Source of the DNA: Candidatus Accumulibacter cognatus
Lineage (GTDB): Bacteria > Pseudomonadota > Gammaproteobacteria > Burkholderiales > Rhodocyclaceae
Direction: 5' to 3'
DNA: 64,000 nucleotides
Assembly: GCA_013414765.1 (NCBI GenBank)
Contig: CP058708.1
Coordinates: 2,475,553 to 2,539,552, forward strand
Shown in pieces: positions 16,868-28,664 of the stretch; the stretch's first letter is position 1; every line of letters begins with the position of its first letter. The notes beneath the pieces are model-generated. The model saw only the letters and a program-made list of their open reading frames with translations, had not been told where the DNA came from and did not search any database. The position numbers and the translations under genes were made by a program.

Positions 16868-16944
16868 GCGCCCGTAGCTCAGTTGGATAGAGTACTTGGC
16901 TACGAACCAAGGGGTCGGGCGTTCGAATCGCTCCGGGCGCGCCA
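16868..16944 (+). tRNA. tRNA-Arg (anticodon ACG)
   Basis: Full cloverleaf. The acceptor arms GCGCCCG (16868-16874) and CGGGCGC (16934-16940) pair perfectly. The discriminator is G and CCA is encoded. The anticodon stem CTTGG/CCAAG closes the loop CTACGAA, so the anticodon is ACG (read as ICG, decoding CGN). The T arm has loop TTCGAAT. The 3' part from 16900 is the attachment site of the island: an almost identical 56-bp copy lies at 28609-28664. Confidence 0.95.
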
Positions 16945-16955
16945 ATAAAATCAAG
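16900..16955 (+). repeat. attL: left 56-bp direct repeat in tRNA-Arg 3' half
   Basis: Matches 28609-28664 at 54 of 56 positions. It begins in the anticodon loop, covers the T arm and CCA end, and extends 11 nt beyond the gene. The two mismatches are in the variable loop/T-stem border (C versus A) and just after CCA (A versus G). This is the usual site type for tyrosine integrases. Confidence 0.9.
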
Positions 16956-16960
16956 CGATT

Positions 16961-16986
16961 AGGCCAATCTTCGGATTGGCCTTTTT
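16961..16986 (+). terminator. rho-independent terminator after tRNA-Arg (island-derived)
   Basis: Perfect 9-bp stem AGGCCAATC / GATTGGCCT with a TTCG tetraloop, followed by TTTT. It lies inside the island just past attL and ends the tRNA transcript. Confidence 0.85.
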
Positions 16987-17002
16987 GCGTTTCTGTTCTC
17001 TC

Positions 17003-17052
17003 GGGTACAAGTCCGGGTACAAGTTGGAGAAAATGACCGGCATCTTGTACCC
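17003..17052. repeat. left arm-type integrase repeats GGGTACAAGT
   Basis: Two direct copies of GGGTACAAGT start 12 nt apart (17003-17012 and 17015-17024). A third copy in inverse orientation (9 of 10) lies at 17043-17052. The same paired arrangement with identical spacing occurs at the right end (28449-28470). They are probably arm sites for the integrase or an excisionase. Confidence 0.6.
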
Positions 17053-17146
17053 TGCCGACGATTTCACCAGGCGAGCGCTTCGCTCCCGGCTAGGCTGAAA
17101 CTGCTCGGCCAGTGGTCTGCACCACCACTTTGTTGCTTCGTGAGCG

Positions 17147-17515
17147 TCACGATATGGCGCCAAGATACCCGGCAACGCCGTGTTGCGTTTCTGCAAGATG
17201 TCTGATTTCTGCCGTACTCGCTCCAGATTGCCCCATGCGATCAGCAACGGTTGATAAGGGTGCAACATAGCCCCCTTTTTCTGGCCGGCTGTGCCTTCGC
17301 CCAGTCCTGCGCGCTGGCCAAAATCGCCGCCGGCCATCATGCGCCGGTGACTGAAACCTTGCCTGAAACCATCGCTGCTGAAACCTTGAACCATCGCCGG
17401 CTCCGGCGGGCAAGGTTTCCGTTCCAGAAACGGACACTTTCCCGGACACCATCGCTGCGGACACCGTCGCCGCACCCAAGAAAAACCCGGCGCTTGGCCG
17501 GGCCTGGTTCGACAT
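17147..17515 (-). CDS. small protein of unknown function, doubtful
   Basis: A 122-residue reading frame whose ATG overlaps the stop of the preceding gene (TGATG), so translational coupling is possible. The N-terminus is Ala/Ser/Val-rich with VSAAMVSGKVSV. The next stretch of DNA is a diverged repeat of that segment but lies in another frame here, which looks like decay after a duplication. The C-terminal part is Arg-rich and low in complexity. Not recognised; it could be a remnant. From here to the left terminator (16987-17146) only the arm repeats are evident. Confidence 0.3.
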   Translation of the reverse strand: MSNQARPSAGFFLGAATVSAAMVSGKVSVSGTETLPAGAGDGSRFQQRWFQARFQSPAHDGRRRFWPARRTGRRHSRPEKGGYVAPLSTVADRMGQSGASTAEIRHLAETQHGVAGYLGAIS

Positions 17516-17811
17516 CAATCAAGCTGCCTTCGATCGGGCGGAATAACCCCGGCCTCCTGCAGCTTCTGCCACATGGTTGCGTGCTCGGCCCCGCAATAGC
17601 TTCCGATGCCATCCGCGAGGTAAGCCCCGGCACTGGCAAGCTTGACGATGCGCGCCGCGAAGTTCTCGTCTTCGACTTCGCGCTGGATGCTGACAAAGAC
17701 CTCATGTAGCCAGCCGAAAGCCTCATCGGCCATCTTGATAGGACCAAGAACATCCTCGGGGTATTGGCCGAAAGCTTCCTTGACGGCGGTGATCAGATCT
17801 TCGGTGTTCAT
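17515..17811 (-). CDS. hypothetical protein, third gene of small island operon
   Basis: 98 residues, acidic and helical by composition, with no signal or membrane segment. Not recognised. The ATG overlaps the upstream stop by 4 nt (ATGA), and its own stop overlaps the next possible start, so it belongs to a tightly coupled operon starting at 18369. It contains HATMWQKLQEAG near the C-terminus. Codon use is like its neighbours, and the overlaps support real coding. Confidence 0.65.
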   Translation of the reverse strand: MNTEDLITAVKEAFGQYPEDVLGPIKMADEAFGWLHEVFVSIQREVEDENFAARIVKLASAGAYLADGIGSYCGAEHATMWQKLQEAGVIPPDRRQLD

Positions 17812-18095
17812 TGCCCGCCCTCCGCGATGGCCCGGTCTGCTTCCCTTCGGGCTTCAATGAGCGAATCGACAACCGTGTCGACAAGGGCTTTTGCCATTTC
17901 CGCAAGATGGCGAACGGCAAATATCGCGTTGACGTCCAGTTCTTCCGGGTTGCTGGCCAGGCTGATCGCGGTATCCAGAAACATCGAAGCGCCCTCCAGC
18001 GCGGATTCGTTTGATATGCCATTGGCGACGCTGAAGAAATCGGCAGGGTAGCCAGCAGCAGAGAAGAACGGCAGGGGTGAAGTGTTCTCAGTCAT
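17808..18095 (-). CDS. small protein resembling DUF3077 family
   Basis: 95 residues. The pattern FFSVANGISNESALEGAS followed by HLAEMAKALVDTVVDSL resembles the short DUF3077 proteins seen in proteobacterial prophages and islands, which have no known function; this match is from memory. The frame is open well upstream, but the ATG at 18095 overlaps the preceding gene by 8 nt and starts just before the conserved part. Second gene of the three-gene operon. Confidence 0.6.
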   Translation of the reverse strand: MTENTSPLPFFSAAGYPADFFSVANGISNESALEGASMFLDTAISLASNPEELDVNAIFAVRHLAEMAKALVDTVVDSLIEARREADRAIAEGGQ

Positions 18096-18369
18096 GGTTC
18101 GCCCCTTCCACCGTCGAGAGAAACCCGGCCAGGGCGGCTGGCAGTTCGTTGGAATCTCCACGAAGACAATCCTGAAGGTCGGCCAGCGCGTTGAGCATGC
18201 GCCATGTGGACTCTTCTCTCGGAAACTGCAACTCAATATCGCCATAGGTGATGGCGTCACACAGTACCAGTCCTGCGATGGCCCAGGCTTGGATTTCTTC
18301 GGGAGTGAAGCGGTCGAGACTTTGCAGTGTGCGGGATTGGCGCGGGTCGGCGCCGGAGATTTTGGGCAT
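18088..18369 (-). CDS. hypothetical protein, first gene of small island operon
   Basis: 93 residues, soluble and not recognised. AGGAG lies 8 nt before the ATG, a good ribosome-binding site. It contains FTPEEIQAWAIAGLVLCDAI and ends in GANHD. It overlaps the next gene by 8 nt. The promoter should lie in the 18370-18611 gap, which contains a long imperfect inverted repeat. Confidence 0.65.
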   Translation of the reverse strand: MPKISGADPRQSRTLQSLDRFTPEEIQAWAIAGLVLCDAITYGDIELQFPREESTWRMLNALADLQDCLRGDSNELPAALAGFLSTVEGANHD

Positions 18370-18423
18370 GGTGATGCTCCTATCGTGAGACTCAAGGCCC
18401 GCTGTTCAAGGCGGGAGGGCGGA

Positions 18424-18553
18424 TGTTGAACACACGTCGATAGCCGTGCCGCCAGCCTTACGGACAGGCGCATCCGCCCATTGAGAGACAACAGGCGCAA
18501 AAAATCCACGCTTACGGGGTGGGCTGCCGCTATCGACTTGGTGTGTTCAGCAC
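18424..18553. repeat. long imperfect inverted repeat upstream of the small operon
   Basis: The left arm (18424-18457, core TGAACACAC and TCGATAGC) is the near reverse complement of the right arm (18522-18553), with small gaps. About 65 bp separate the arms. The element fills most of the 242-bp gap between the minus-strand small operon and the plus-strand ParB-like remnant. Confidence 0.55.
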
Positions 18554-18611
18554 CGTTTCACCAGTATCAGCCACGCGCCAGCAGTACGTCAAGCGATAGA
18601 CCGGCTCAAAA

Positions 18612-18965
18612 TTGAGCCGATCTCTTACGACTGCGCCACGCCCGGCGCGGATGATCGACATGGACGCTCTGGAAGCCGAGCATGACGAGAACGAATGCCG
18701 GTTGAACTTCAGCATGAGCGAGCGGGTAGCCATCGGCCGGGCCATCGAGGAAAGGTATGGCGAGCGGCGGGGTGGCGATAAAAAATCGAAAGCCAAAAAT
18801 TTGGCTTTCGATCCCAACGCCGGAAACAAAACCGACTCAATAGCCGCCAAACAAGCCGGATTCGGGAACCCTGAAACCTACCGCCAGGCGAAGAGAGTCG
18901 TCGACCAGGGCGCCCCTGAGCTGGTGGCGGCCGTCGATGCCGGCGCCGTCAGCATCAGCAATCCC
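18612..18965 (+). pseudogene. ParB-like protein remnant
   Basis: About 118 codons resemble the central helical part of phage or plasmid ParB-like proteins: SERVAIGRAIEERYGERRGG, then AAKQAGFGNPETYRQAKRVV and GAPELVAAVDAGAVSIS. The N-terminal ParB nuclease-like domain is missing, and similarity ends abruptly after SIS. The frame then continues into low-complexity Arg/Ala-rich sequence until 19337. The break point coincides with a block shared with the dispersed repeats at 19401 and 21983, so the gene was probably truncated by rearrangement. Confidence 0.6.
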
Positions 18966-19400
18966 CCTGCGGCTTGCGCAATCGCGCCAGGACGAACGAT
19001 CTGCCGCGCGGCAATACCATCCCAACCACTGCACCGCAGAAACGCGCCTGAGCGTCGCCGCAGGCATCTTGCCGTCAGCATTGCGCAGTGCAACCTCTGC
19101 ATTTTTCGCGCCAGTAGTGATCTATACCCGCTGAACGTCAGGCAGTGCATAGCGAGGAACGATTCATGCTTGGAGTTGCTCACGGCATTGTGCGGTGCGA
19201 TCGTTCTTGCCCCACCTGTAACGTTGCGGGTATCACTTGGCCGGCGCACCGCCGCAAAACATCAGGCGCAGGCCGATAGCCGACGATCGTCGACGCCAGC
19301 CCGGTCAGCCGCTACCTGCAGCCACGCCCGCGCGTAATTCTCTCGGGCTTGCGCGTACTGCGCATAAAATAGCCACGCCCGCGCGCCCGCGGTAATGGTC

Positions 19401-19560
19401 GGTTTTCCGGGGTAGCGTTGATGCGAAGTTTCCCAAGCGGTACCCGGTCGAGTAGCGCCAGAGATTTCTACCGCCCCACCCCTACCGGCCCGACGACAGC
19501 GCCACCGATGCCGCGGCAAGGCCACTGCGCGGCGCTACAGCGAACGATCAGCAGCCGGTT
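19401..19560. repeat. dispersed imperfect repeat, copy A
   Basis: Shares ordered blocks with 21983-22130: CGGTTTT, TAGCG, GCGAAGTTTCCC, AGCGCCAGAGATT and CTACAGCGAACGATCAGC. It fills the gap between the ParB remnant and the methyltransferase end. The rest of 18966-19620 shows no convincing gene. On the minus strand, 19250-19300 resembles the 3' end of the Cys-motif gene at 23454-24104 (the VGYRPA segment), perhaps another remnant. Confidence 0.5.
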
Positions 19561-19623
19561 GAGCATACACGGCGACGAATCCGGCCCGGTTTGAAAGGCT
19601 GTGGCGCTGATGGCCACGGCCTT

Positions 19624-20652
19624 TCAGGGCTTCAAGATCAACAGTTCACGGATGACTTCGTGATGCGTGTTCTTCATGGGCACCGGCTCAACCCGGAAGC
19701 CGTGCCGCTGGGCCATTGAGCGCACTTCCGGTGCGTCGTCATAGGTCAGCATCACAGAGCCACGCACCGAGGCCATGAGAGCGAACAGCCCTTCATGGTC
19801 GATTTCGTTGTGGGTGTAGAGCCGCGCCCCGGCCTTCTTGCCCCCTGCCGTGTAGGGAGGATCAACGAAGAAGAACGCATTGGCATCATCGGCGTAGCGC
19901 CTCACGACCTCGAAGGCGTCGGCTTGCTCGAAGGTGATCCGATCACGCATGGCCTGTAAGGCTTCGATGCGCCGGGCCAGTGTTTCGGGATACCAGCGGG
20001 AATTCAGGCCGCGCCCAGCTTCGCCGGTCTTAACGAGGCCAGCGCCTGCGGCCATGATGCCGCCGCGCTGCATCCGGTTCTTGACGATGGTGCGGAAGGC
20101 CCGTCCGCGGACGCTCTTCGGGTTGCCGTCAAGGATGGCCCGGACGTTCTCAAACGTCACATCGAAGCCGATGATTTGCTTGCACAGCCACGCCACATCG
20201 GCGTTCTTGCCGTAGAAGATGGTTTGCCAGACGGCGGCCACGTCATCGTCCAATTCGCCCAGAAAGACGTGTTCTGCCAAGCCCTCAGCGGCGGCCGACA
20301 GGCCCGCCATTGCACCACCCGCGAACGGCTCGACAAAGACTGATAGCGTGACCTTGGATGCAGTCAGCCACTTGCGCACCTCGGGGACAAGCCAAGTCTT
20401 GCCGCCCGGATAGCGAAACGGACTGAGCTGGCGAACCTGCGCGACGTTGGTCGGGGTTTTCTTGTCTTGGAGCTGCGCGACCAGCGAGGCTAGCGCCTCA
20501 GCTTTGACCGGATCAACGAAGTGATGCCGCAGCCCTTCAAGGGCCGGTTTGCATTCGTGATGGACAAGCACCGTGGCCCGTGTGACGCCTTGCTCTTTCA
20601 GGCGCTCGATACGGCGGTTTTGCCGTTGCAGTGCGGTTGCGTCGGTTGTCAT
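19624..20652 (-). CDS. D12-class DNA N6-adenine methyltransferase with N-terminal DNA-binding-like extension
   Basis: Transfers methyl from SAM to adenine in a specific DNA site, protecting it from the adjacent nuclease. The 342-residue protein has motif X/I FRYPGGKT near residue 80, FVEPFAGG near 105, and the catalytic DPPYTAGG near 260, as in Dam/DpnII-type enzymes. An extra 75-residue N-terminus contains a strand-helix-helix pattern (TRATVLVHHECKPALEGLRHHF) like ribbon-helix-helix repressors; this is inference. GGAG sits 9 nt before the ATG at 20652, which is chosen over 20673. Promoter and twin operators lie just upstream. Confidence 0.88.
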   Translation of the reverse strand: MTTDATALQRQNRRIERLKEQGVTRATVLVHHECKPALEGLRHHFVDPVKAEALASLVAQLQDKKTPTNVAQVRQLSPFRYPGGKTWLVPEVRKWLTASKVTLSVFVEPFAGGAMAGLSAAAEGLAEHVFLGELDDDVAAVWQTIFYGKNADVAWLCKQIIGFDVTFENVRAILDGNPKSVRGRAFRTIVKNRMQRGGIMAAGAGLVKTGEAGRGLNSRWYPETLARRIEALQAMRDRITFEQADAFEVVRRYADDANAFFFVDPPYTAGGKKAGARLYTHNEIDHEGLFALMASVRGSVMLTYDDAPEVRSMAQRHGFRVEPVPMKNTHHEVIRELLILKP

Positions 20653-20665
20653 CGTTATTTTCTCC

Positions 20666-20677
20666 GTGAACATTCAC
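20666..20677. promoter_or_regulatory. operator copy 1 (GTGAACATTCAC) before the methyltransferase
   Basis: 12-bp near-palindrome with arms GTGAA/TTCAC around CA. It lies between the -10 box and the start codon, where a bound repressor would block transcription. It is identical to copy 2. Confidence 0.65.
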
Positions 20678-20679
20678 GG

Positions 20680-20708
20680 AGCGTAACAAGGACGTATAGG
20701 CGCGTCAA
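20680..20708 (-). promoter_or_regulatory. methyltransferase promoter between two operators
   Basis: On the minus strand, TTGACG (20708-20703) and TACGCT (20685-20680) are spaced by exactly 17 nt, centred between the two GTGAACATTCAC copies. The -35 is 5/6 and the -10 is 3/6 to consensus. Confidence 0.55.
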
Positions 20709-20713
20709 GACCC

Positions 20714-20725
20714 GTGAACATTCAC
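20714..20725. promoter_or_regulatory. operator copy 2 (GTGAACATTCAC)
   Basis: Identical to copy 1, 48 bp away. It lies just upstream of the -35 box and within the 99-bp gap between the endonuclease and methyltransferase genes. Confidence 0.65.
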
Positions 20726-20751
20726 AGGCTTGTCAGTCAAGCAACTTGTGG

Positions 20752-21771
20752 TCAGTTTGCGGCGTCGGTGCCGCTGCCGTTCTCTAGGGGCAGACCGTCA
20801 TCGACAGGTTCCGTGATGGGGGCCGGATGAATGATCTTGTCGGTGATGCGCGTCTCGAACACGAGCAGGGGAACCGGCTTGCCACCTGTCAGGCCCTCCA
20901 CCGAACGCTCAAGAGTGGTGTACCTGACTTCATCGCGCACGATGCGCGTGCGCTTCTGGCCTTCGACCTCTTCAAAGCGGACGACGAACCACGCAATGTC
21001 AGCATTGGATATGTCGGCCACGTTGTCCATCTCACCGATGGAATCGAAGAAGGCGCGATCCACGACAACGGCCATCTTCTTACCCCAGCGGCGCAGCGTC
21101 GGGACTTTGATTTGAAGCTGCGGCATCAGCCGCTTGGGGCCGCTGCTGCGGTAGTCGGGGCGACGACGACCGGCCGGGAAAATGACCCAATCCACAGCGG
21201 AATCGTTGAAGGCTTCAAACTCGCCTTTCATGGCGTTGCCGCTGAAATAGACGGCCTGAATCTCAAGGGCTGCCCAATTCATCGGGGCTTCCTTGGGCGT
21301 CTTGGAGCTGACTAGCACCATGTCGATGCGGCCCACGTCATCGCCGCCTTCGCTGTCGGTCGAGGCCCCGGCTTCGAGGAAGCCGACTTCACCGACCAGC
21401 AGCGGGTCAGGGTCGCCAAGGATTGTTTCGCCTACCCACTTGAACACATCGAGTTCATCGTGGAAGCGATACGGGCAAGTGGCGCGAAGGTCGCCTTGCT
21501 TGCCCTCAACAGGGACACCGACCGCACGGACGTTGTCTGGGTGTGTGTCGTAGGAGTAGAGCCGGAGCGAGCACACCCCGCCGTCCTTCGAGCAGATAGC
21601 GCCTTGTTTGCGCGCTTGGAAGGGGCAGGGTTGCGGGGTTCGCTCTTTCTTCGGCTTGAGGACTTCGGCGGCAAGTTGACGGCGTTCCTCACTGGAAAGC
21701 TGCGTCAGATTGAAGCCGAACCACTCCCCTATCCCGAATCGTGGCGTGATGTCTTTTAGTTTTTTTGCCAT
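20752..21771 (-). CDS. NotI-family type II restriction endonuclease
   Basis: Predicted PD-(D/E)XK nuclease of the NotI family. The 339-residue protein has four spaced cysteines, CPF (49), C60, CSLR (67) and CPYRF (99), matching the iron-binding Cys4 fold described for NotI. The likely active site is Asp150 with Glu170-x-Gln172, the same D...ExQ order as NotI. GTGAGG lies just before the ATG at 21771, preferred over 21789. It lies directly upstream of the adenine methyltransferase on the same strand. The recognition site cannot be deduced; the adenine partner argues against the GC-only NotI site. Confidence 0.85.
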   Translation of the reverse strand: MAKKLKDITPRFGIGEWFGFNLTQLSSEERRQLAAEVLKPKKERTPQPCPFQARKQGAICSKDGGVCSLRLYSYDTHPDNVRAVGVPVEGKQGDLRATCPYRFHDELDVFKWVGETILGDPDPLLVGEVGFLEAGASTDSEGGDDVGRIDMVLVSSKTPKEAPMNWAALEIQAVYFSGNAMKGEFEAFNDSAVDWVIFPAGRRRPDYRSSGPKRLMPQLQIKVPTLRRWGKKMAVVVDRAFFDSIGEMDNVADISNADIAWFVVRFEEVEGQKRTRIVRDEVRYTTLERSVEGLTGGKPVPLLVFETRITDKIIHPAPITEPVDDGLPLENGSGTDAAN

Positions 21772-21982
21772 AACCTCACAAAGTAACACATTGGACAGTT
21801 GCGGGTCTCGGTAAGGTCATGCGGTCGTTACGCTGTAACGTTTGCCGTCGGCAGACCACCAGGGCGAACCCGGCCCCCACGGGCAGCCACCTGCCAGCAG
21901 TGCGTCAAGGGCTTGCACTGTGGGGCAATCAGCCACAGGCTATACCATCGGCAGCGCTGCGCGCGCAACGAAAATTTTGTGC

Positions 21983-22130
21983 TCGGTTTTTCCAAATAGC
22001 GATAACGCGAAGTTTCCCGATCGGTTTCCCGACGAGAAGCGCCAGAGATTCGACGCCCCCTACCCATACCGCCAGCAATGCCCCTGCGGCCCGCAGAATC
22101 GCGCTACAGCGAACGATCAGCGCCGGCTGC
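21983..22130. repeat. dispersed imperfect repeat, copy B
   Basis: Counterpart of 19401-19560 with the same block order. A third partial copy of its 3' half (CCCCTGCGG ... AATCGCGC ... CGAACGATC) lies at about 18963-19003, where the ParB remnant breaks off. The surrounding gap 21772-22331 shows no intact gene. Minus-strand 22255-22290 again resembles the GYRLAPE end motif of the Cys-motif protein. Confidence 0.5.
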
Positions 22131-22331
22131 TTACATGGGGGGGTAGCGCCGGCCAGTCACGGCCCGTATCTCGTACCGTCGCAATACTGACGTTGAACGT
22201 TTTTTTATGGCGCTTTCCGTGGTGGCACACTCGTCGCACTCTTGCCGGATCTCCGGCGCCAGCCGATAGCCGCGGGCTTGCCGACGACGCAGCCGGCACG
22301 CGACCGATTCTCGCCATCCTGCGAAACAGAT

Positions 22332-22967
22332 TCAGCCCTCGCGGTTCAGCACGTCGTCCATGCCGGCCAGCCGCCAGTCAATGCTGGCGAACCGCTTCAT
22401 GGCCCCGGCCAGCGATGCCTCGGCAAAGCCAAGATACTCGGCAGTCAGCCGGTTGAAGGTGCGCCAGTGCATACCCTTTGGCTTGCCGCCTTCGCCGTTC
22501 AGAATGCCCGGCTCCCAGCCAAGCCGCCGCCGGATGGTGTCCGCCCGCCGCATCGCTCGATCATCGTTCGTTTCCCGCTGGCACGGATAGGCCAGCCTGT
22601 GACAGTGCCGACAGGCGAAGATTGAACCGCCGAAGAGGATCGCCACGCGCCGCCTACATCCTCTCGCCGGGCAAAGAAACCACGCCCGCCGCCCGCCAAG
22701 GTGGCAGGGTGTCCATTCCAGATGAACTGGGTATTCTATCGGTTGCCACTCTCCACCATCGCATCGGCTTCGGTAGTTGAGAATCACGCGGTCAACTTCC
22801 ATTCGCATCTGGATGGATGCCACCTCTACGCCATGACGAGTCCATTGCCAGCCGAAGGCTAGGCCCGGTGTCAGCAGTCCATCGCGTTGCAGCCGCCGAA
22901 TATCCAGCGTCCGCATGTCGCTTGTCGTGGCCTTGCCCCACTGTCGCCCGCTACCGTATCCGCCCAT
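22332..22967 (-). CDS. conserved island protein with zinc-finger-like cysteines (GGYGSG family)
   Basis: 211 residues starting MGGYGSGR. The pattern SLD/TLDIRRLQRDGLL, then TPCHLGGRRAWFLCP, CPARGC and CRHC, is shared by hypothetical proteins common in proteobacterial prophages and islands (recognised by memory, no function known). The paired CxxxxC and CxxC motifs suggest a zinc-binding or DNA-contacting role. GAGGG lies 6 nt before the ATG. Last gene of the seven-gene minus-strand operon, 25 nt after the preceding gene. Confidence 0.75.
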   Translation of the reverse strand: MGGYGSGRQWGKATTSDMRTLDIRRLQRDGLLTPGLAFGWQWTRHGVEVASIQMRMEVDRVILNYRSRCDGGEWQPIEYPVHLEWTPCHLGGRRAWFLCPARGCRRRVAILFGGSIFACRHCHRLAYPCQRETNDDRAMRRADTIRRRLGWEPGILNGEGGKPKGMHWRTFNRLTAEYLGFAEASLAGAMKRFASIDWRLAGMDDVLNREG

Positions 22968-22992
22968 CGCCGCCCTCGCAGATTTTCCGAAA

Positions 22993-23454
22993 TCATTTGG
23001 TAAGTTGCCTTGCCATCACCGCCGCCGATTCGCCGGAATCGCCCGCCGTTGCTCGCTTTTCGGTGGTTTCCGGTATGGGTAGCTTTCTCACCAATTCCTG
23101 AGCAATTGCAGCCCGAATACTTTCCTCCCAGTCGTCGTTCTCATGCAAATCGGGGTATCGCTCGCGGTTGATCAGCGGCTGTGCCAGCCGTTCTGCTACC
23201 GGGTCGCGGCCAGCCCATTGATTGACGACCACGGTCAGCGGAGTCGGCGCTTTGGTTTCCGGCTTCCCGACAAGGTATTGCGCCAACCAGGCCCGCGCCG
23301 CAGGGTCGCCTTCCTTAGCCAGTTGCAGGGTTCCGGCGACCACATCCCGCCAATCGTCAAGGGTCACGGTATCCAATAGCACGCCCATGTAATCGGTTTC
23401 GGTGCGCCGATGCGCTCCCGCCCCATGGATGAATCCTTGCTTCGCTCTTGCCAT
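22993..23454 (-). CDS. hypothetical protein, possible small-subunit-like adaptor
   Basis: 153 residues, soluble. The N-terminus is basic, followed by VTLDDWRDVVAGTLQLAKEGDPAARAWLAQYLVGKP, a pattern seen in small phage proteins that act before packaging or in DNA handling. That similarity is loose, so no function is assigned. A near-perfect Shine-Dalgarno (AAGGAGG) precedes two adjacent ATGs; the second (23454) has the better spacing. The stop of the upstream gene overlaps this start. Confidence 0.65.
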   Translation of the reverse strand: MARAKQGFIHGAGAHRRTETDYMGVLLDTVTLDDWRDVVAGTLQLAKEGDPAARAWLAQYLVGKPETKAPTPLTVVVNQWAGRDPVAERLAQPLINRERYPDLHENDDWEESIRAAIAQELVRKLPIPETTEKRATAGDSGESAAVMARQLTK

Positions 23455-24104
23455 CATTCACCTCCTTTCTGGATCAGTCCCGGCCAGTGCTCGCGGCCCG
23501 TCCGTTGATTGGTGTCATTAGCGTTCGGCGCATAGCCCGCGCACCGTTGGGGCATGTCGGGCGATGCCGGTCGATAGCCGACGATCGCCGACACCCGCCC
23601 GCCAGGTCGAGCGACCACGCAGACGCCACCGCGCAGATTGCCGCACTGCGAACAGCATCGCCGGTCGTCGTCGGCGATCGCCTTCGCCCGGCCCAGGTAG
23701 TACGCCCTCGCGCCGTCGTCATGCCTGCACCGTTCGATCACTTCGACAATCATCGAAGTGTCGTTCTCGCCAATACTGGCCAGCCAGGTCTGGATCGCCG
23801 TTTCCTCTTCGGCGGCCAGCAGTGTGTCGGGTTGCCGCCGGCCCGGCTCGATCGGCTCCGCCGCCAGCGCACTCGGATAGCCGGCAAGCGCCTCGGCATG
23901 GTTAGCCGCCGGCGAGAAGGCCACCGTCAGCGGCTCGCGGTCGGCGAAGTGGAGCAGCCAACGATAATGAGGGGTTGCGACTTCTGCGACTTCTGCGACT
24001 TCTGCGCCTTGAGTGCTTGTCTTTGGGTTGCAAAGTCGCAGAGTCGCAAGAGTCGCAAGGGGTGCTTGTGGGAAATGTCCTATTTCGCCAGGATCAAACC
24101 ACAT
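23454..24104 (-). CDS. island protein with C-terminal cysteine motif
   Basis: 216 residues, unknown function. The N-terminal part contains a short repeat (EVAEVAEVA) before a conserved block PHYRWLLHFADREPLTV and HAEALAGYPSALAAEP. The C-terminus has a Cys cluster (CSQCGNLRGGVC ... RCAGY) followed by GREHWPGL, seen in many integrative-element proteins next to DUF3987 genes. The ATG at 24104 overlaps the DUF3987 stop by 11 nt. Upstream in-frame ATGs lie inside that gene. The Cys cluster suggests metal binding. Confidence 0.7.
   Translation of the reverse strand: MWFDPGEIGHFPQAPLATLATLRLCNPKTSTQGAEVAEVAEVATPHYRWLLHFADREPLTVAFSPAANHAEALAGYPSALAAEPIEPGRRQPDTLLAAEEETAIQTWLASIGENDTSMIVEVIERCRHDDGARAYYLGRAKAIADDDRRCCSQCGNLRGGVCVVARPGGRVSAIVGYRPASPDMPQRCAGYAPNANDTNQRTGREHWPGLIQKGGE
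23977..24003. repeat. 9-bp tandem repeat, three units (GCGACTTCT)
   Basis: Three perfect units inside the Cys-motif gene, encoding a Glu-Val-Ala triplet repeat on the minus strand. Changes in copy number would keep the frame. Confidence 0.8.
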
Positions 24105-25725
24105 GGTGCAGCACCTTCCATGAAAACTTTGCGCGCACCCCATCAACCACAGTGCCGGAGTCGTTTTCCAACAGATAGCCGTTGTCCACAAGTTCCTTGA
24201 TGGACGCCATCAATCGCGGCTTGTTGCGCAGATGAGAAGGCCCGCCGTTCAATACCTGCTTCGACCTGAACATGGTGATGTCGCGGTCTTTCAGCCACGA
24301 TGACAGGCTTTCCGCGTCGAGTACCGACTGAGGAATCGCAGCAGCGCCGCGAATGCGAAGCGCCTCGCGCAAGTACCACTGCATGATGATCAGCGCCCGC
24401 TCAAGGTGCAGTCTATCCACCTCTCGCGCCGCCAATCCAGAGTCGATAGCGGTCATCACGCCGGCAATGCGGCAGGCATTTTCAAGCGCTTTTGACGTGC
24501 GGTCGGGCAGTTCGGCCAGATCGGCGCCGGGTGCCATCAGCGTTTCAAACTGGTTTTGAGCAACCACAGCTAGATCCACCGCTTCACCACTGAGGGGCAA
24601 TTCGGCCGGCGTAAGCTCCTGCGGATTTTTTCCAGTGCAGGGCGGCACCTCCATCAGCGTCTTGAGGACCGCGAAAAGGCGTTTGATTTCTCGCCGATCC
24701 TCGGGCTTCTCGAAGCGCTCAACATGCCGGCGCCCAATCGTGCTTTCTGGCCACGCGACAAGACAGCGGGACAGCAGCCCTTGCCCGTTCGCCATGCGAT
24801 CCGACAGCAAGAGCGTCATCACATCGGGCTGCGCAAGTTGATGCAGCGCCATGCGGCGCCCGTAGAGGATGGATGCACCGTCGCCAGCGCGCACGCGGTC
24901 AAAGGGCGATCCGTCCCAAATCTTGCACCAGCGCGCCATCGTCTTGAGTGCATTGTCAGAATTCAGAGCGTGCCCACCGATCAGCAAACCGCCCTCATCC
25001 GAAAATAGCGCCATGCTGGGTTGCGCGCTGGCCATCAACTTGAACTGGCCTTCGACCGTCGGATCCGTCAGGAACCTCAGCGGCATGACGGGGGGAATCG
25101 GTTGTTCACCCACCGCCTGAACCGCTCGCAGAACATCGTCAGCGGTTGCAGGTGCAGTGCCGGATTTCTTGCTCGTTGCTGCGCGCCTTGCCGCGTCGGC
25201 CGCCTGCTTCCACGAATCCAGCGCCAATTCATAGGCGGCAAGATCGACTTGATAGGACTCTAAATCATCTCGCTCCTGCTTCTTGGCGGCGCCGAGAACG
25301 ACATCATCAACCCCGCTTTTTCGCTCGCCGGACTGGCCGACAGTGAGCAGAAAAAGTGACAACGGCCGGAGCTTTCCCCAGGGCAGCAGCACGTCGAAAT
25401 GGGGCTGCGCCGCGAGCGATGCCGCAGCCAGTACAGACTGGCAGCACATGGCCAGCGGCGCCTTGATGGTTTCGTGCAGAGCTTGTGCAGCCTCGCCCAG
25501 AATCACGCCCAGCGCCGCAACGGGGTAAGGTTCGGCCGGGGGAACCGATGCCCTCAGCGGCTCAGGATCGCGCCGCAGAAGCGCAGAATCGCCCGCTGGT
25601 GGCCGTTCCTCGATTGGCCGTTTCATTGCGGGCACCAGGGCGCCTCGTGCGGTCGGCATGTTGAGGATATGCTCGGATGCCAAGTCATCAAGAAACGATT
25701 GCCCGCGTTCAGCGCCTCTATCCAT
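24094..25725 (-). CDS. DUF3987 (YfjI-type) ATPase/replication protein
   Basis: 543 residues, a hallmark of proteobacterial integrative elements and P4-like satellites. A P-loop-like motif GQSGERKS lies near residue 130, and LFSDEGGLLIGG near residue 250. The C-terminal region (residues 480-543) looks like a winged helix (RSKQVLNGGPSHLRNKPRLMASIKELVDNGYL). It probably acts in element replication as a primase/helicase-like factor; this is family-context inference, as biochemistry is poorly known. The start overlaps the preceding gene by 8 nt. Confidence 0.8.
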   Translation of the reverse strand: MDRGAERGQSFLDDLASEHILNMPTARGALVPAMKRPIEERPPAGDSALLRRDPEPLRASVPPAEPYPVAALGVILGEAAQALHETIKAPLAMCCQSVLAAASLAAQPHFDVLLPWGKLRPLSLFLLTVGQSGERKSGVDDVVLGAAKKQERDDLESYQVDLAAYELALDSWKQAADAARRAATSKKSGTAPATADDVLRAVQAVGEQPIPPVMPLRFLTDPTVEGQFKLMASAQPSMALFSDEGGLLIGGHALNSDNALKTMARWCKIWDGSPFDRVRAGDGASILYGRRMALHQLAQPDVMTLLLSDRMANGQGLLSRCLVAWPESTIGRRHVERFEKPEDRREIKRLFAVLKTLMEVPPCTGKNPQELTPAELPLSGEAVDLAVVAQNQFETLMAPGADLAELPDRTSKALENACRIAGVMTAIDSGLAAREVDRLHLERALIIMQWYLREALRIRGAAAIPQSVLDAESLSSWLKDRDITMFRSKQVLNGGPSHLRNKPRLMASIKELVDNGYLLENDSGTVVDGVRAKFSWKVLHHVV

Positions 25726-26143
25726 GGGACAACCCCGCCGCCGTGATCGCCGCCTGAATCCGGCTCGCGGCCAGAATCAGGCGCTCGCGGTCCACTTCAG
25801 TGAACGGCTCGCCGGCCAGCAGCGCCACTGCTGCCGCCGCGACCACCATCGCCTCGAAGGCGACGCAGCGCAACACATCGCTGGCAGGGAATGGGCGGCG
25901 TTCGCTCTTGGCATGATGCGTCAGCTTCTCGGGGAACAGGTCGCTTGGCTGAAGTCCAATGGCGTCGAGAATGTCAGGGACCGAATCCCCGCCGAAGTCG
26001 TGAAGGAGCAGCACGCCTTCATCGGTCTCCCGCACCGCTCCCGACATGTGGCGGTCCTTGCGGGTGGGAACGCGAAACTGCCAGCGGCCTGGTCCGGTCT
26101 GCCGGTGCTCAACGCGAGACAAGAATTTCTCGGTGGGAGTCAT
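25718..26143 (-). CDS. primase zinc-finger-like protein lacking zinc ligands
   Basis: 141 residues. The N-terminal 75 residues follow the plan of CHC2/primase-type zinc domains that precede replication genes: a GPGRWQFRVPTRKD block, a turn, VLLLHDFGGDSVPDILDAIGL, then DLFP. In the usual versions these read RCPAH and HCFAGC; here the Cys positions are Val and Asp, so zinc cannot be bound in the usual way. The C-terminus is an Ala-rich helical segment. The ATG at 26143 is fixed by a 4-nt ATGA overlap with the small gene upstream. Confidence 0.65.
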   Translation of the reverse strand: MTPTEKFLSRVEHRQTGPGRWQFRVPTRKDRHMSGAVRETDEGVLLLHDFGGDSVPDILDAIGLQPSDLFPEKLTHHAKSERRPFPASDVLRCVAFEAMVVAAAAVALLAGEPFTEVDRERLILAASRIQAAITAAGLSHG

Positions 26144-26307
26144 CGCCGCCCCCTGTTCCATGACTTTTTCTGCTGCCGATTGCGCGAGGGTTTGGCGAGA
26201 TTGAACCAGCCTATCACCGGATCGCTTCCGGTATGATTGCGGCTATCGGTAGTCTTTGGGGTCGCACTGGTTCCCCGCCAGTTGCGGCCCTTGTTGTTTT
26301 TGGTCAT
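26140..26307 (-). CDS. 55-residue basic protein, coupled between AlpA-like and primase-like genes
   Basis: A short reading frame of 55 codons starting ATG at 26307, beginning MTKNNKGRNWRGTS and ending RNRQQKKSWNRGRR. It is strongly basic and Asn/Arg-rich. GGAG lies 8 nt before the ATG. It starts 13 nt after the AlpA-like stop, and its own stop overlaps the next start (ATGA). Position and coupling argue that it is real. Not recognised; it may bind nucleic acid by charge. Confidence 0.6.
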   Translation of the reverse strand: MTKNNKGRNWRGTSATPKTTDSRNHTGSDPVIGWFNLAKPSRNRQQKKSWNRGRR

Positions 26308-26320
26308 GTCGTCGCTCCGG

Positions 26321-26638
26321 TCAGGCCGCGAGGGCTTTGCGAAGCTCGCCGACGTTCCAAGCTGTGATTCGCTGAGAGAGTTTTCGGGGTGATGGCAGAT
26401 CGCCGCGCTTGACCAAGCGCCAAACCGTTGCGGCCGAGCACGCCTTCAGCGCCTTGACTACCGGCAGCCGGACACTGGCCGAATCGGGCAGGGAGTCAAA
26501 ATTCTTGAGTGCGTCAGGGATGCTGATTTCCTTGACGCGAACAGGCGCCGGGTCTTGAAAAGCCGCCTCGATGGCGCTGGCGCTGGCGATGGCCGACCGA
26601 ATTGATGCTGCCGGGATGTTGCGGGTTTTTGCGTTCAT
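26321..26638 (-). CDS. AlpA-family / excisionase-like helix-turn-helix regulator
   Basis: 105 residues. The C-terminal half reads VKALKACSAATVWRLVKRGDLPSPRKLSQRITAWNVGELRKAL, the MerR-type winged helix of AlpA-like proteins that control integrase expression and excision in P4-like elements. The N-terminal 50 residues are Ala/Ser-rich. The ATG at 26638 is chosen over an in-frame TTG at 26662. First gene of the minus-strand replication operon. Three tandem 10-bp repeats and an inverted repeat lie upstream and are likely control sites. Confidence 0.8.
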   Translation of the reverse strand: MNAKTRNIPAASIRSAIASASAIEAAFQDPAPVRVKEISIPDALKNFDSLPDSASVRLPVVKALKACSAATVWRLVKRGDLPSPRKLSQRITAWNVGELRKALAA

Positions 26639-26729
26639 ATGCGCGTTGCTCTTTCTCGCCAAAAGGCGAAAAAAGCAGTCTCGAACGCGCCCAAAGAGCT
26701 ACGACAACCGGCCAAACTAATTTTTTGGC

Positions 26730-26760
26730 TAGATAAGTGTAGATAAGCGTAGATAAGTAT
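26730..26760. repeat. three tandem 10-bp repeats (TAGATAAGYG/TA)
   Basis: AGATAAGTGT, AGATAAGCGT and AGATAAGTAT follow each other with exact 10-bp period, next to an A/T-rich stretch (CTAATTTTTTGG). They could be iterons or operator sites for the AlpA-like protein, about 95 bp upstream of its start. Confidence 0.75.
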
Positions 26761-26772
26761 CGTATAGTGTCG

Positions 26773-26785
26773 TAGCGTCTCGCTA
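26773..26785. promoter_or_regulatory. inverted repeat TAGCG-TCT-CGCTA
   Basis: Perfect 5-bp arms with a 3-bp centre, upstream of the tandem repeats in the alpA control region. A short operator-like palindrome. Confidence 0.4.
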
Positions 26786-26814
26786 AGGCGCGTTCAAAAC
26801 TGCTTGCTTGATGG

Positions 26815-27120
26815 TTGGCAAATTTTGATCGCCGGGCGGGTGCTGGTAACATCCCCCGGCAACCTCCTATGCCATGCGCTTTCTCATGCGGCATGGCAAG
26901 ACGGCATAATACACTATTCCTCGAAGATATCCACAGCCGGCTGCCGACTTATTCACAGGCCGCTTTCGTGGATCTCATCGGCAGCACCTTGCCGGCAGCC
27001 GGCGCCACCGTTGCGCAGAACTTCGCCCAATCGGCCATGAGTCTGCGCCGCTTCTCGATCAGATCGCCGCGAGCCAGGCGCCGTATATCAAGTTGTACGC
27101 TTGAGCGTGACCACGTTTGA
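26815..27120 (+). CDS. hypothetical protein between replication operon and integrase, doubtful
   Basis: 101-residue frame divergent from the AlpA-like operon. The middle part reads AFVDLIGSTLPAAGATVAQNFAQSAMSLRR, which looks protein-like. The next 20 codons are better in another frame (LLDQIAASQAPYIKLYA, stop near 27105), so a frameshift is possible. It overlaps the integrase 3' end. It also contains two DnaA-box-like 9-mers, so the segment may be an origin rather than a gene. Confidence 0.3.
   Translation: MANFDRRAGAGNIPRQPPMPCAFSCGMARRHNTLFLEDIHSRLPTYSQAAFVDLIGSTLPAAGATVAQNFAQSAMSLRRFSIRSPRARRRISSCTLERDHV
26927..26957. other. two DnaA-box-like 9-mers (putative origin element)
   Basis: ATATCCACA (26927-26935, 8 of 9) and TTATTCACA (26949-26957, fits TTATNCACA) start 22 bp apart, two helical turns, on the same face. 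Together with the tandem 10-mers and AT tract 170 bp away they suggest an element origin. Confidence 0.4.
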
Positions 27121-28404
27121 TGCGCCGCTGGTCAGCAGTTCGAGCCGTTCCCCTAGCAGCCGCCAGCCTTTCCGCTGTTCCGCTTCCAACGATTGCCGCT
27201 GATAGATGCGCTCAAGCGGGTTCCTCTGCTGATGGTTCAGCATCCTCTCAATCACGTAGGGGGGCGTTCCAAGCTCGCCGGCCAGTGTTGCCGCCGTTCG
27301 CCGCAAGTCATGGGGCGTCCAATCGCCGCCAGTCAGTTTCAACGACGCGACAGCCAAACTACGGTTCTGCATCGGCGCGCCTTCGCGCTGCCTGTCACCG
27401 ATCTGTTTCGTGATGCTTTTCACGCACACATGGCTGTCCTCCTTGTTTTCTGCGGGGAACACCCACTGAGAATTCCCCGACGTTGGCTTGAGCACTTCGA
27501 ACCACTTGACGGCAAAATCTGACAGATAGATGCGGTGCTCCTTGGCATTCTTGGCAACATCGGAAGGAATCGTCCAGACCTTCCCCTCCAGATCGACAGC
27601 AGACCAACGTGCTTGGCTGATTTCCCCTACCCGGCAGCCAGTGGCCAGCATGATCCATAGCGCGGCTTCTGTGCGCTTCTGGAGTTTCGCCTCTGGAATC
27701 TTGGCGCGTAGCTCCCTGATTTCCGCTTCGCTCAGAACGCGGTCACGTTCAACTTTCGCGCCGCCAAACTGAGCTTTGTTCAATCCATCGCAAGGGTTCG
27801 CCTCAATGATCTGTCTGGCCTTTGCAAAGTTGAACATCTGGTTCATGTCGGCAAGCAAGTAATTGGCAATGACCGGCGATCCCCGACGAACGACGCTATC
27901 CAGCAAGGCAGCCACCATGCCTCGGGTCACGTCCTCAGCAGGAACCGCGCCCAGTACTGGCAGAACATCCTTGCCGAACGAACGCCGTATCTCGGCACCC
28001 CCATCTTTGCGCTTGTGCGAGAGATAGTCAGCCTGCCACCGATCAAGCAAGGCCCGTACTGTAAGCCGGGCAGCAACCTTTGCCGCTGCTGCAGCCGCCG
28101 CAATCGTGGCTGCTGCCTTAGCCGCTTCTTCGGCCTCTTTAGCCAGAACAGGATCTATACCTTGACGACGCATGGCTGATAGCTCATTTGCCCCGACTCG
28201 CGCAGCAGCTAGGCCCATGTCGCCGTACACGCCAAGTTGCATCTTTCGGGGTTGTCCGTTCATGGTGTAGCGGTAGAACCAAACCTGCCTCGCTTCCCCT
28301 GCGCGAACCCGCAGATATAACCCATCGCCGTCAGACAAGTATCGTTCCCCCGTAACGACCTTGGCGGCAGCAGCTTCAAGACTTTTCACGTTGTACTTGC
28401 CCAT
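27088..28404 (-). CDS. int: tyrosine recombinase (P4-type island integrase)
   Basis: Integrates and excises the island at tRNA-Arg. The 438-residue protein has an N-terminal arm-binding domain (YLSDGDGLYLRVRAGEARQVW), an Ala-rich linker, a core-binding SAM-like region, and the catalytic domain. The active-site residues are visible: Arg in GCRVGEIS, HDLRRT (HxxR), the His in LNHQ and the nucleophile Tyr in ERIYQR. The ATG at 28404 has GGGAG 8 nt upstream; a GTG three codons earlier is the alternative. It reads away from attR, 205 bp inside it. Length and architecture are complete, so the enzyme may be active. Confidence 0.93.
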   Translation of the reverse strand: MGKYNVKSLEAAAAKVVTGERYLSDGDGLYLRVRAGEARQVWFYRYTMNGQPRKMQLGVYGDMGLAAARVGANELSAMRRQGIDPVLAKEAEEAAKAAATIAAAAAAAKVAARLTVRALLDRWQADYLSHKRKDGGAEIRRSFGKDVLPVLGAVPAEDVTRGMVAALLDSVVRRGSPVIANYLLADMNQMFNFAKARQIIEANPCDGLNKAQFGGAKVERDRVLSEAEIRELRAKIPEAKLQKRTEAALWIMLATGCRVGEISQARWSAVDLEGKVWTIPSDVAKNAKEHRIYLSDFAVKWFEVLKPTSGNSQWVFPAENKEDSHVCVKSITKQIGDRQREGAPMQNRSLAVASLKLTGGDWTPHDLRRTAATLAGELGTPPYVIERMLNHQQRNPLERIYQRQSLEAEQRKGWRLLGERLELLTSGASNVVTLKRTT

Positions 28405-28448
28405 GTTGTACACTCCCTTTGTGAAGATATTCCCTTCGGGACCTCTCC

Positions 28449-28470
28449 GGGTACAAGTCAGGGTACAAGT
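28449..28470. repeat. right arm-type integrase repeats GGGTACAAGT
   Basis: Two direct copies at 28449-28458 and 28461-28470 with the same orientation, 12-bp period and flanking TTGGA as at the left end. They lie between the integrase start and attR, so they may also overlap its promoter. Confidence 0.6.
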
Positions 28471-28608
28471 TGGATTGATTCAGTGCGGCATTCCTTGACA
28501 CCCCTTGAGACACAGTATAGACGAGTTTTTATACTAGAACAACAAGTTACATTTTTTTGAGGCGTTCAGGATGTTTCAGGAAGTGTCAAAAAAAGCCACT
28601 GTACCTAA

Positions 28609-28664
28609 CTACGAACCAAGGGGTAGGGCGTTCGAATCGCTCCGGGCGCGCCAATAGAATCAAG
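28609..28664 (+). repeat. attR: right 56-bp direct repeat, tRNA-Arg 3' fragment
   Basis: 54 of 56 identical to 16900-16955. It lacks the 5' half of the tRNA, so it is not a functional tRNA gene. Confidence 0.9.

Follow-up and report, generated by a model that had tools for sequence, protein, structure and literature searches.

The window, meaning the whole stretch of 64,000 nucleotides that was analysed, carries a restriction-modification (R-M) pair made up of a NotI-family nuclease gene and an adenine methylase gene, and this pair lies within the apparent boundaries of an integrated element. The features are as follows.

16868 to 16944, plus strand: tRNA-Arg gene (ACG), likely integration site of the element
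16892 to 16955, plus strand: att-like repeat at the left end of the element (64 nt, 92% identical to 28601-28664)
19396 to 19552, plus strand: left copy of an imperfect direct repeat that flanks the R-M pair
19624 to 20652, minus strand: gene for a D12-class N6-adenine DNA methylase with an N-terminal extension (342 aa; PF02086, Dam/7m6b fold, start as in pEST4011)
19627 to 20430, minus strand: catalytic methylase domain, residues 75-342
20452 to 20652, minus strand: putative DNA-binding N-terminal domain, residues 1-67 (from AlphaFold2 models)
20663 to 20680, minus strand: proximal operator-like dyad TCCGTGAATGTTCACGGA, its end overlapping the ribosome site
20680 to 20708, minus strand: predicted methylase promoter TTGACG-17-TACGCT, between the two dyads
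20711 to 20728, minus strand: distal operator-like dyad CCTGTGAATGTTCACGGG, 48 bp from the proximal dyad
20752 to 21771, minus strand: NotI-family restriction endonuclease gene (339 aa, ATG at 21771; PF12183, 42-relative profile)
21980 to 22121, plus strand: right copy of the direct repeat, about 70% identical to the left copy
27088 to 28413, minus strand: tyrosine integrase of the element (PF00589, PF13356 and PF22022 over cut-off)
28601 to 28664, plus strand: att-like repeat at the right end of the element

The R-M pair is best explained as a type II module that is cargo of the element integrated at tRNA-Arg. Because the pair is conserved in distant relatives, a chance association is excluded and the pair is confirmed as real.

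The nuclease scores 264.2 bits against PF12183 (NotI; curated cut-off 22), all 42 of its aligned relatives match the same family, and no variation is observed across these relatives at C49, C60, C67 and C99 or at D150, E170 and Q172 (D...ExQ). A profile of the 42 relatives reaches the solved NotI structure (3bvq/3c25) with an E value of 2.7e-5, whereas searches with the single nuclease sequence or a 12-sequence profile did not reach it. In the resulting alignment the NotI cysteines are in register with the four of the nuclease, while ExQ, the only portion of D...ExQ that aligns, falls in a second and very weak segment (1.8 bits). Conservation of these residues among the relatives was read from alignment columns instead of regular expressions for the cysteine and ExQ motifs, which were too narrow (both were found in 55 of 82). 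A sequence-only reading of this DNA had proposed a NotI-family nuclease with Cys4 spacing and a D...ExQ active site; both proposals stand, with ExQ as the weakly aligned part. In NotI itself, according to a review, iron is held by the Cys4 motif and Q replaces the catalytic K (PMC4081073).

The methylase matches PF02086 with 43.8 bits (cut-off 22), the match beginning at residue 88 of the longest open reading frame, and among 26 sequences its EPFAGG motif (108-113) is nearly invariant and its DPPY motif (264-267) is invariant. Fold searches identify the protein as Dam-like (7m6b, Dam), with Dam-type PDB chains matching over 244-260 residues. It falls outside the Dam subfamily TIGR00571, scoring 36.7 bits against an NCBIfam cut-off of 114.85, and the best PADLOC match of its methylase domain is PD-Lambda-5_B (E 3.4e-42). 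The PF02086 match and Dam-like fold bear out the earlier identification of the partner as a D12 N6-adenine methylase, which, judging from its family, would protect the nuclease site by N6-adenine methylation. Translation likely starts at the ATG at 20652, which follows the ribosome site GGAG and is also the annotated start in pEST4011; the ATG of the longer reading frame, at 20673, falls within the proximal dyad. With this start, the N-terminal extension is therefore about 67 residues long.

AlphaFold2 models this extension as a helix (residues 7-20), an extended segment (21-31) and two further helices (32-46 and 48-64), with a pLDDT of 87 when modelled alone. In the full-length model, which sets the domain before and apart from the methylase part, the value is lower (about 60-78). 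The sequence-only reading had described a 75-residue extension resembling a ribbon-helix-helix repressor. Structure prediction agrees with a separate domain, of about 67 residues, while membership of the ribbon-helix-helix class found no support in Pfam, PHROG, PDB-sequence, Foldseek or hhalign comparisons. Pfam searches with 18 domain members at E values up to 1 returned no ribbon-helix-helix family, no helix-turn-helix family and no family for the domain; PHROG and PDB-sequence searches matched no known DNA-binding family; Foldseek with the domain model gave no match in the PDB and no significant match in BFVD; and hhalign gave 0.4% to the RHH_1 set and 4.4% to a MazE-like set. As a separate lead, the extended-helix-helix order of the model fits a ribbon-helix-helix fold, preceded here by an extra helix. 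The domain profile was built from 18 loci picked by protein sequence, with dyads at some of them already known at that time, and its scores are well separated (at least 70.8 bits for methylases with the domain and at most 2.5 bits for those without). On plasmids the domain was found only in the same methylases (7 records), and phages yielded no stand-alone homologue. Outside the methylase loci of a 398-genome sample there were six weak stand-alone matches (E 0.001-0.01), three of which (loci L040, L043 and L044) were judged from their open reading frame lists to be chance.

A nuclease lies near 83 of 100 non-redundant methylase loci, a proportion that is no census, since the query alignment was built of nuclease-bearing loci and the genome scan took the best 80 of 531 relatives. 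The count and the methylase tree exclude four near-copies (L025, L127, L128 and L139); L016 duplicates L015, a D12 methylase is missing from L017 and L019, and 14 of the 28 loci of the viral scan (L140-L153, 21-44% identity) were left out. The lack of a nuclease at L130 and L131 is weak evidence, as fewer than 600 bases lie upstream of the methylase match there. In the less biased phylum sample PF12183 was matched in 13 of 398 genomes: seven (at least 108 bits) have a D12 methylase, and in the six weak ones (22-36 bits) phmmer found neither protein. NotI cleaves at GCGGCCGC, which contains no adenine, whereas the window nuclease is partnered by an adenine methylase. For this reason, assuming that the methylase is its cognate protector, the nuclease must have a specificity other than GCGGCCGC, and the reasoning of the earlier reading on this point is sound. 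Moreover, on pBN5 a nuclease 85% identical to that of the window is paired with a cytosine-5 methylase, and two such close nucleases with partners of different type suggest that both A and C probably occur in the recognition site. The pBN5 methylase was also considered as a route to the site itself; in the PDB it matches generic C5 enzymes, and no site was deduced.

The 99-base gap between the two genes holds two palindromes that the sequence-only reading did not mention, both of them 18-bp operator-like dyads. The 18-bp dyad TCCGTGAAYRTTCACGGA sits at the methylase promoter; in the window the -10 element and the proximal dyad share one base, the last of the former and the first of the latter. 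A terminator or RNA hairpin was rejected on inspection of the dyad, which would have a two-base loop, lacks a T run and contains the expected start. At up to two mismatches the window's own genome contains 7 sites, two of which are the locus itself, compared with 3 for a reversed control, and a wider regulon is not claimed.

Occurrence of the dyad follows that of the domain. Across 104 loci (genome scan again limited to the best 80 of 531 relatives), a dyad identical at 16 or more of 18 positions accompanies the domain in 24 of 26 loci (16-18 positions) and is present at none of the 78 loci that lack it. The best match among the latter is at most 12/18 in 76 loci, four of the 78 (L071, L075, L080 and L085) offering only 24-262 of the 360 upstream bases, and reaches 14 and 15 at L054 and L055, where nuclease and methylase are kept and domain and dyad have decayed together. 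Restricting the count to non-redundant domain-bearing loci leaves the dyad in 20 of 22, and by lineage, with the window's cluster of eight taken as one, in 13 of 15; L062 adds a fourteenth lineage with a perfect dyad of other sequence, L138 has the domain and no such dyad, and the dyad of L066 is only 6/8 symmetric. Conservation in 14 divergent loci aligned on the dyad is 1.62 bits per column within it and 0.17 upstream. Among 17 representatives, a set that counts the window's cluster twice, contains the two decayed loci and omits L138, all but L062 and L126 have a sigma-70-like promoter adjoining the dyad (15 of 17), compared with 2.9% of 5,100 random positions. The dyad stays with the methylase even where the nuclease is on the opposite strand, and no GTGA-N4-TCAC dyad precedes the nuclease at any of 27 nuclease-bearing loci. 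In the 398-genome control CCGTGAAYRTTCACGG occurs in four genomes, three times at domain-methylase loci and once with no methylase nearby by eye, and in the viral collection six contigs hold the full dyad, four of them representing one near-identical domain-methylase locus. Palindromes with neither methylase nor domain nearby were set aside as chance: that of genome G330 (L034), checked by eye, and those of the viral contigs L191 and L192, checked by profile. The methylase tree groups all 22 domain-bearing methylases within a single 29-row clade with support 100/98, and the 71 rows outside it have neither domain nor dyad. The tree requires six label changes, so several losses must be assumed, and the decayed L054 and L055 together with those 71 rows indicate that this control is not needed for the R-M pair to persist.

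How would such an arrangement act on the methylase gene? We consider it probable (roughly 0.75), on comparative sequence grounds, that the methylase represses its own gene through binding of its N-terminal domain to TCCGTGAAYRTTCACGGA at the methylase promoter, as part of a type II module on a mobile element. Co-inheritance of dyad and domain supports the earlier suggestion that modification and control are united in one protein. The domain, presumably dimeric, would bind the dyad on its own promoter and block transcription. Upon entry into a new host the promoter would be free, the methylase would be made fast and host sites would be protected; as the methylase accumulates the dyads would become occupied, and methylase synthesis would drop to a set level. 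Having no such dyad, the nuclease promoter would escape direct control, and in relatives whose two genes lie tail to tail, strong early transcription of the methylase could delay the nuclease until self-repression begins.

The same binding could serve a different function, activation or two-way switching of the promoter by the domain, with the distal dyad raising and the proximal dyad stopping transcription in the manner of two-box C proteins. Two dyads 47-49 bp apart do bracket the promoter in 11 loci (the window, L014, L015, L020 and L046-L052), and in L126 and three near-copies the sole dyad lies about 50 bp farther upstream than elsewhere and not over the -10 element, an arrangement that raised the odds of a switch and lowered those of self-repression. 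The remaining dyad-bearing loci have the proximal dyad alone, over the -10 and start region, which favours plain repression and makes the switch unlikely. Binding of the dyad by another regulator, of the host or the element, would leave the domain to serve methylase dimerisation or target recognition; the domain does lack a recognisable DNA-binding family, and a co-travelling regulator among the remaining locus genes is formally conceivable. We judge this quite improbable, however, since the model sets the domain apart from the methylase part and the dyad recurs with the domain, and not in relatives without it, in contigs classified as Pseudomonadota, Nitrospirota, Acidobacteriota, KSB1 and viruses, so that the binder should travel with the methylase gene.

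The dyad could instead contain the enzymes' own methylation and cleavage site, the promoter being controlled by methylation (AhdI-type) and the domain having some other role. Promoter methylation is a known mode of control according to a review (PMC12707154), and adenines are present in the dyad. This explanation is nevertheless very improbable, because the dyad follows the N-terminal domain and not the methylase domain, as seen in L054 and L055, whose methylases remain 61-64% identical to that of the window, and because its interior varies (GTGAA/TTCAC or GTGAG/CTCAC, with YR or AT at the centre), unlike a fixed type II site, both arms having changed together in L063 and L062. Least probable of all is a non-working pair, that is, a decayed or orphan module in which methylase and nuclease would have different sites: both frames are intact with their invariant residues present, and a nuclease accompanies most methylase loci in the seeded sample described above.

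Self-repression as in SsoII- and EcoRII-type methylases, performed here by an adenine enzyme with an unrelated domain, would thus be the best reading of the locus. A broader model, which we put forward tentatively, is that an undescribed family of DNA-binding domains on NotI-type adenine methylases autoregulates through a conserved operator, that a verrucomicrobial branch of these methylases has a further, unrelated N-terminal fusion and a candidate dyad to go with it, and that the nuclease, nearly unchanged, swaps between adenine and C5 protectors. If this is true, self-limitation of methylases has arisen more than once, from different DNA-binding domains. Few systems are known to have methylase-repressor fusions (SsoII, Ecl18kI and EcoRII), and a real operator here would extend the same logic to a widespread, mobile adenine-methylase system whose domain is unrecognised by the libraries searched. 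The conserved dyad makes the prediction of self-repression directly testable, and the adenine/cytosine-5 swap beside nearly the same nuclease offers a handle on NotI-family recognition sites. The sequence-only reading had known of no described system of this make-up: the pair is in fact widespread, with plasmid copies (pEST4011 among them) already annotated gene by gene, while a search of open-access literature yielded no paper on the NotI-nuclease/D12-methylase pair or its control.

Comparison with known systems places the window pair near several of them. NotI shares the four-cysteine site in register and ExQ in the weak second segment, although overall similarity is remote. D12/Dam methylases (7m6b, E. 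coli Dam and DpnM) have the catalytic fold and motifs in common with the window methylase, which differs in lying far below the NCBIfam dam cut-off and in its extra N-terminal domain. For PD-Lambda-5 the methylase alone matches; the nuclease matches no model of PADLOC 2.0.0. M.SsoII, M.Ecl18kI and M.EcoRII, all of them C5 enzymes, resemble the window methylase in having a distinct N-terminal domain and a palindrome at their own promoter, known in the window from sequence and model. In M.SsoII, a C5-cytosine enzyme whose additional domain is repressor-like (helix-turn-helix), the 71-residue N-terminal region binds a palindromic regulatory site and lowers expression of its own gene (PMC3978073), this palindrome lies near the methylase promoter and is distinct from the methylation site (PMC3978073, PMC12707154), and the figure text of the review assigns methylase-repressor fusions to the helix-turn-helix type (PMC12707154). 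The window methylase, in contrast, has the Dam fold of an adenine enzyme, a domain that is unclassified and gave no helix-turn-helix match, and another dyad. Moreover, SsoII and Ecl18kI raise the nuclease via overlapping promoters, whereas nuclease genes of the window type stand in tandem or tail to tail. C-protein R-M systems likewise have two operator-like sites at a promoter within the R-M locus, but a controller gene would not fit into the 99-base gap, and in the window system the putative control domain belongs to the methylase itself.

The restriction-modification pair of the window consists of a NotI-family nuclease gene followed by a D12 N6-adenine methylase gene, with 99 bases from the nuclease stop codon to the methylase start and two copies of an 18-bp operator-like palindrome (the dyad) in the intervening gap:

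21771-20752, minus strand: NotI-family nuclease gene, 339 residues (PF12183)
20711-20728, gap: distal dyad, CCTGTGAATGTTCACGGG, 48 bp from the proximal dyad
between the two dyads: predicted methylase promoter, TTGACG-17-TACGCT, its final base doubling as the first base of the proximal dyad
20663-20680, gap: proximal dyad, TCCGTGAATGTTCACGGA
20652-19624, minus strand: D12 N6-adenine methylase gene, 342 residues (PF02086)

The nuclease scores 264.2 bits against PF12183 (NotI; cut-off 22), a family matched by 42 of 42 aligned relatives, in all of which C49, C60, C67, C99, D150, E170 and Q172 are invariant. NotI was not recovered from the PDB by a single-sequence search or by a 12-sequence profile; a profile of 42 relatives retrieved NotI and nothing else at E up to 10 (3bvq/3c25, E 2.7e-5); the four cysteines line up with those of NotI, and ExQ falls in a further segment that aligns very weakly. 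A review describes NotI as holding iron in a Cys4 motif, with Q in place of the catalytic K (PMC4081073). The methylase scores far under the NCBIfam dam cut-off, and its model has 7m6b and E. coli Dam as best PDB matches. PF12183, PF02086 and the models agree with the sequence-only reading of a NotI-family nuclease beside a D12 adenine methylase that bears an N-terminal extension.

Two AlphaFold2 models place residues 1-67 ahead of the methylase part. Going by the Dam fold, we would expect target recognition to reside among the helices after residue 136, so that structure prediction did not give the result named beforehand as refuting the idea, an N-terminus belonging to the target-recognition domain. 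The extension comprises a helix (5/7-20), an extended stretch (21-31) and two further helices (32-46 and 48-63/64), with a mean pLDDT of 87 when modelled alone and lower values, about 60-78, in the full-length model. This order is compatible with a ribbon-helix-helix domain plus a preceding helix, the label first given to it. Confirmation of the label came neither from Pfam or PHROG (no relevant family for 18 members searched), nor from PDB sequences (none relevant), nor from Foldseek (no PDB match and no significant BFVD match), nor from hhalign, which gave 0.4% against the RHH_1 set and 4.4% against the MazE-like set. The extension is treated here as a putative DNA-binding domain of no assigned family.

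The association of this domain with the dyad was followed across 104 methylase loci, namely the best 80 of 531 genome relatives, 14 of 28 viral-contig loci, the window, two domain-bearing plasmid loci and seven further loci. A domain profile separates 26 loci with the domain (at least 70.8 bits) from 78 without it (2.5 bits or less). The dyad score is the best match to the 18 bp within up to 360 bp upstream of each methylase, all 360 bases being present in 26/26 and 74/78 loci, respectively. Sixteen domain-bearing loci score 18, five 17, three 16, one 12 and one 10; 76 of the 78 others score 12 or less, the exceptions being L054 (14) and L055 (15). The locus scoring 12, L062, carries a perfect dyad of other sequence, CGCGTGAGCACTCACGCG, in the same place, and for the locus scoring 10, L138, a matching dyad was not found in the upstream stretch searched. 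Domain and dyad go together in 20 of 22 loci after removal of near-copies and in 13 of 15 when counted as separate lineages by our own grouping from sequence identities.

Several controls bear on this association. Among 398 genomes sampled from the phylum, four contain the string CCGTGAAYRTTCACGG, three of them at domain-bearing loci; the fourth shows no nearby methylase ORF, judged by eye. The full dyad occurs in six contigs of the viral collection, four of which represent one near-identical domain-bearing locus; in the other two, neither the domain nor a methylase or nuclease was found by profile. With 14 divergent loci aligned by their dyads, conservation is 1.62 bits per column in the dyad versus 0.17 in 52 upstream and 0.36 in 12 downstream columns. 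A promoter (at least 8/12 sigma-70 matches, with the -10 end between 4 bases before and 1 after the dyad's first base) abuts the dyad in 15 of 17 representatives, L062 and L126 being the exceptions, versus 2.9% of 5,100 random positions. L054 and L055, which lie inside the domain-bearing clade, retain nuclease, methylase and a good promoter (10/12), while their N-terminal sequence is unrecognisable and dyad symmetry is down to 4/8 and 5/8 versus 6/8-8/8 elsewhere; domain and dyad appear to have decayed together.

Nuclease and methylase genes meet tail to tail, on opposite strands, in 13 non-redundant domain-bearing loci; in eight, the window's cluster, the nuclease is upstream in tandem, and one further contig (L051) ends before the nuclease. 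Because the dyad precedes the methylase whichever the arrangement, except in L138, which is without one, and a GTGA-N4-TCAC dyad lies upstream of the nuclease in 0 of 27 nuclease-bearing loci, the dyad appears to go with the methylase rather than the nuclease. In the tree, the 22 non-redundant rows with the domain all group in a single clade of 29 rows (support 100/98). The domain label requires six changes, which we read as one gain and several losses, a history that the tree does not force. The seven domain-less rows of this clade are L054, L055 and five methylases (L061, L065, L129, L130, L131) lacking both domain and dyad, for which a nuclease was not seen in the locus, the upstream flank being cut in two.

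At most loci the dyad extends over the end of the -10 box as well as the expected start of transcription, a position at which a bound protein would shut out RNA polymerase. The simplest reading, to which we give a probability of about 0.75, is that the methylase would cap its own synthesis through its N-terminal domain by negative feedback. The promoter would be open when the genes enter an unmethylated host, such that protection comes first and the methylase level settles later; in loci with convergent genes, repressing the methylase transcript may also relieve the nuclease gene of opposing transcription. An alternative is that the domain is a two-way switch, with a second, activating role at the distal dyad. 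The presence of that dyad leaves room for this idea, as does L126. There, and in three near-copies, the sole dyad is displaced upstream by ~50 bp relative to the proximal dyad of other loci, which puts it near the window's distal position, about 309 bases ahead of the GGK motif. This L126 position lowered our estimate for repression alone from 0.77 and made the switch a little less improbable, and we still consider it unlikely. The proposal that one protein unites modification and control is backed in its main idea by the comparative co-occurrence of domain and dyad, with binding and repression themselves inferred.

An 11.7-kb element integrated at tRNA-Arg carries the pair as cargo:

16868-28664: integrated element with 64-nt att-like repeats
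27088-28413: tyrosine integrase
24094-25725: DUF3987 protein
19396-19552 and 21980-22121: imperfect direct repeats flanking the pair, about 70% identical over ~160 bases

Elsewhere in the same genome, the flanking repeat had no match at E up to 0.001 beyond these two places; restriction-modification genes have precedent for insertion with long target duplications. The methylase was not found in 40 other related genomes searched, 24 of the same genus. Within the element, tandem 9-base units (TGCGACTTC) at 23976-24010 encode a repeated EVA motif in a minus-strand ORF, and an ORF at 18612-19337 is ParB-like by eye in its first part, then apparently out of frame, with no Pfam match.

The pairing of a NotI-type nuclease with a D12 methylase is not peculiar to the window. 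Of 100 non-redundant methylase loci, 83 have a nuclease nearby; the sample was seeded with such pairs, and its genome part is the best 80 of 531 relatives, these on contigs assigned to many phyla. PF12183 matches occur in 13 of 398 genomes of the phylum sample, seven (the window included) with a D12 methylase; phmmer found neither protein for the six weakest. Plasmid pEST4011, a Burkholderia cepacia plasmid and three Variovorax plasmids carry nucleases 95.9% and methylases 94.6-94.8% identical to the window's, and two small Aeromonas plasmids carry relatives of the pair at 93.5% and 89.0%. pEST4011 is an IncP-1 plasmid, and its record names IncP-type transfer genes. Those plasmid copies inspected are annotated 'NotI family restriction endonuclease' and 'DNA adenine methylase', and the sequence-only reading, to which no described system of this make-up was known, rated the rarity too highly. 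One methylase 93% identical (L047 4001-5026) lies on a contig binned as Thermaceae, reflecting recent wide transfer or mis-binning. A verrucomicrobial clade within this methylase family (L069, L073, L075, L076, L125) has another N-terminal extension (KWKxxxTTVIRVP...). Upstream, L076 and L125 carry a CCCTGTTACAGGG-like sequence, and L069 and L073 a TGTAACA-like sequence that is less distinct; the L075 stretch is cut.

Plasmid pBN5 (L017 4533-7344) encodes a nuclease with 84.8% identity to that of the window, next to a C5-cytosine methylase, not an adenine methylase, and a very-short-patch-repair (Vsr) gene; a remote relative in Sedimenticola likewise has a C5 partner. Since the pBN5 and window nucleases are partnered by cytosine and adenine enzymes, respectively, the recognition site would hold both A and C, provided that the near-identical nuclease keeps its site, and would differ from that of NotI, GCGGCCGC.

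M.Ecl18kI and M.EcoRII are C5-cytosine enzymes. Together with M.SsoII they are known parallels to methylase self-repression (PMC12707154; PMC3978073). M.SsoII is likewise described there as a C5-cytosine enzyme (PMC3978073), whereas the window's methylase is a D12 adenine enzyme. By the comparative evidence, it would be an adenine-methylating counterpart of these self-repressing enzymes.
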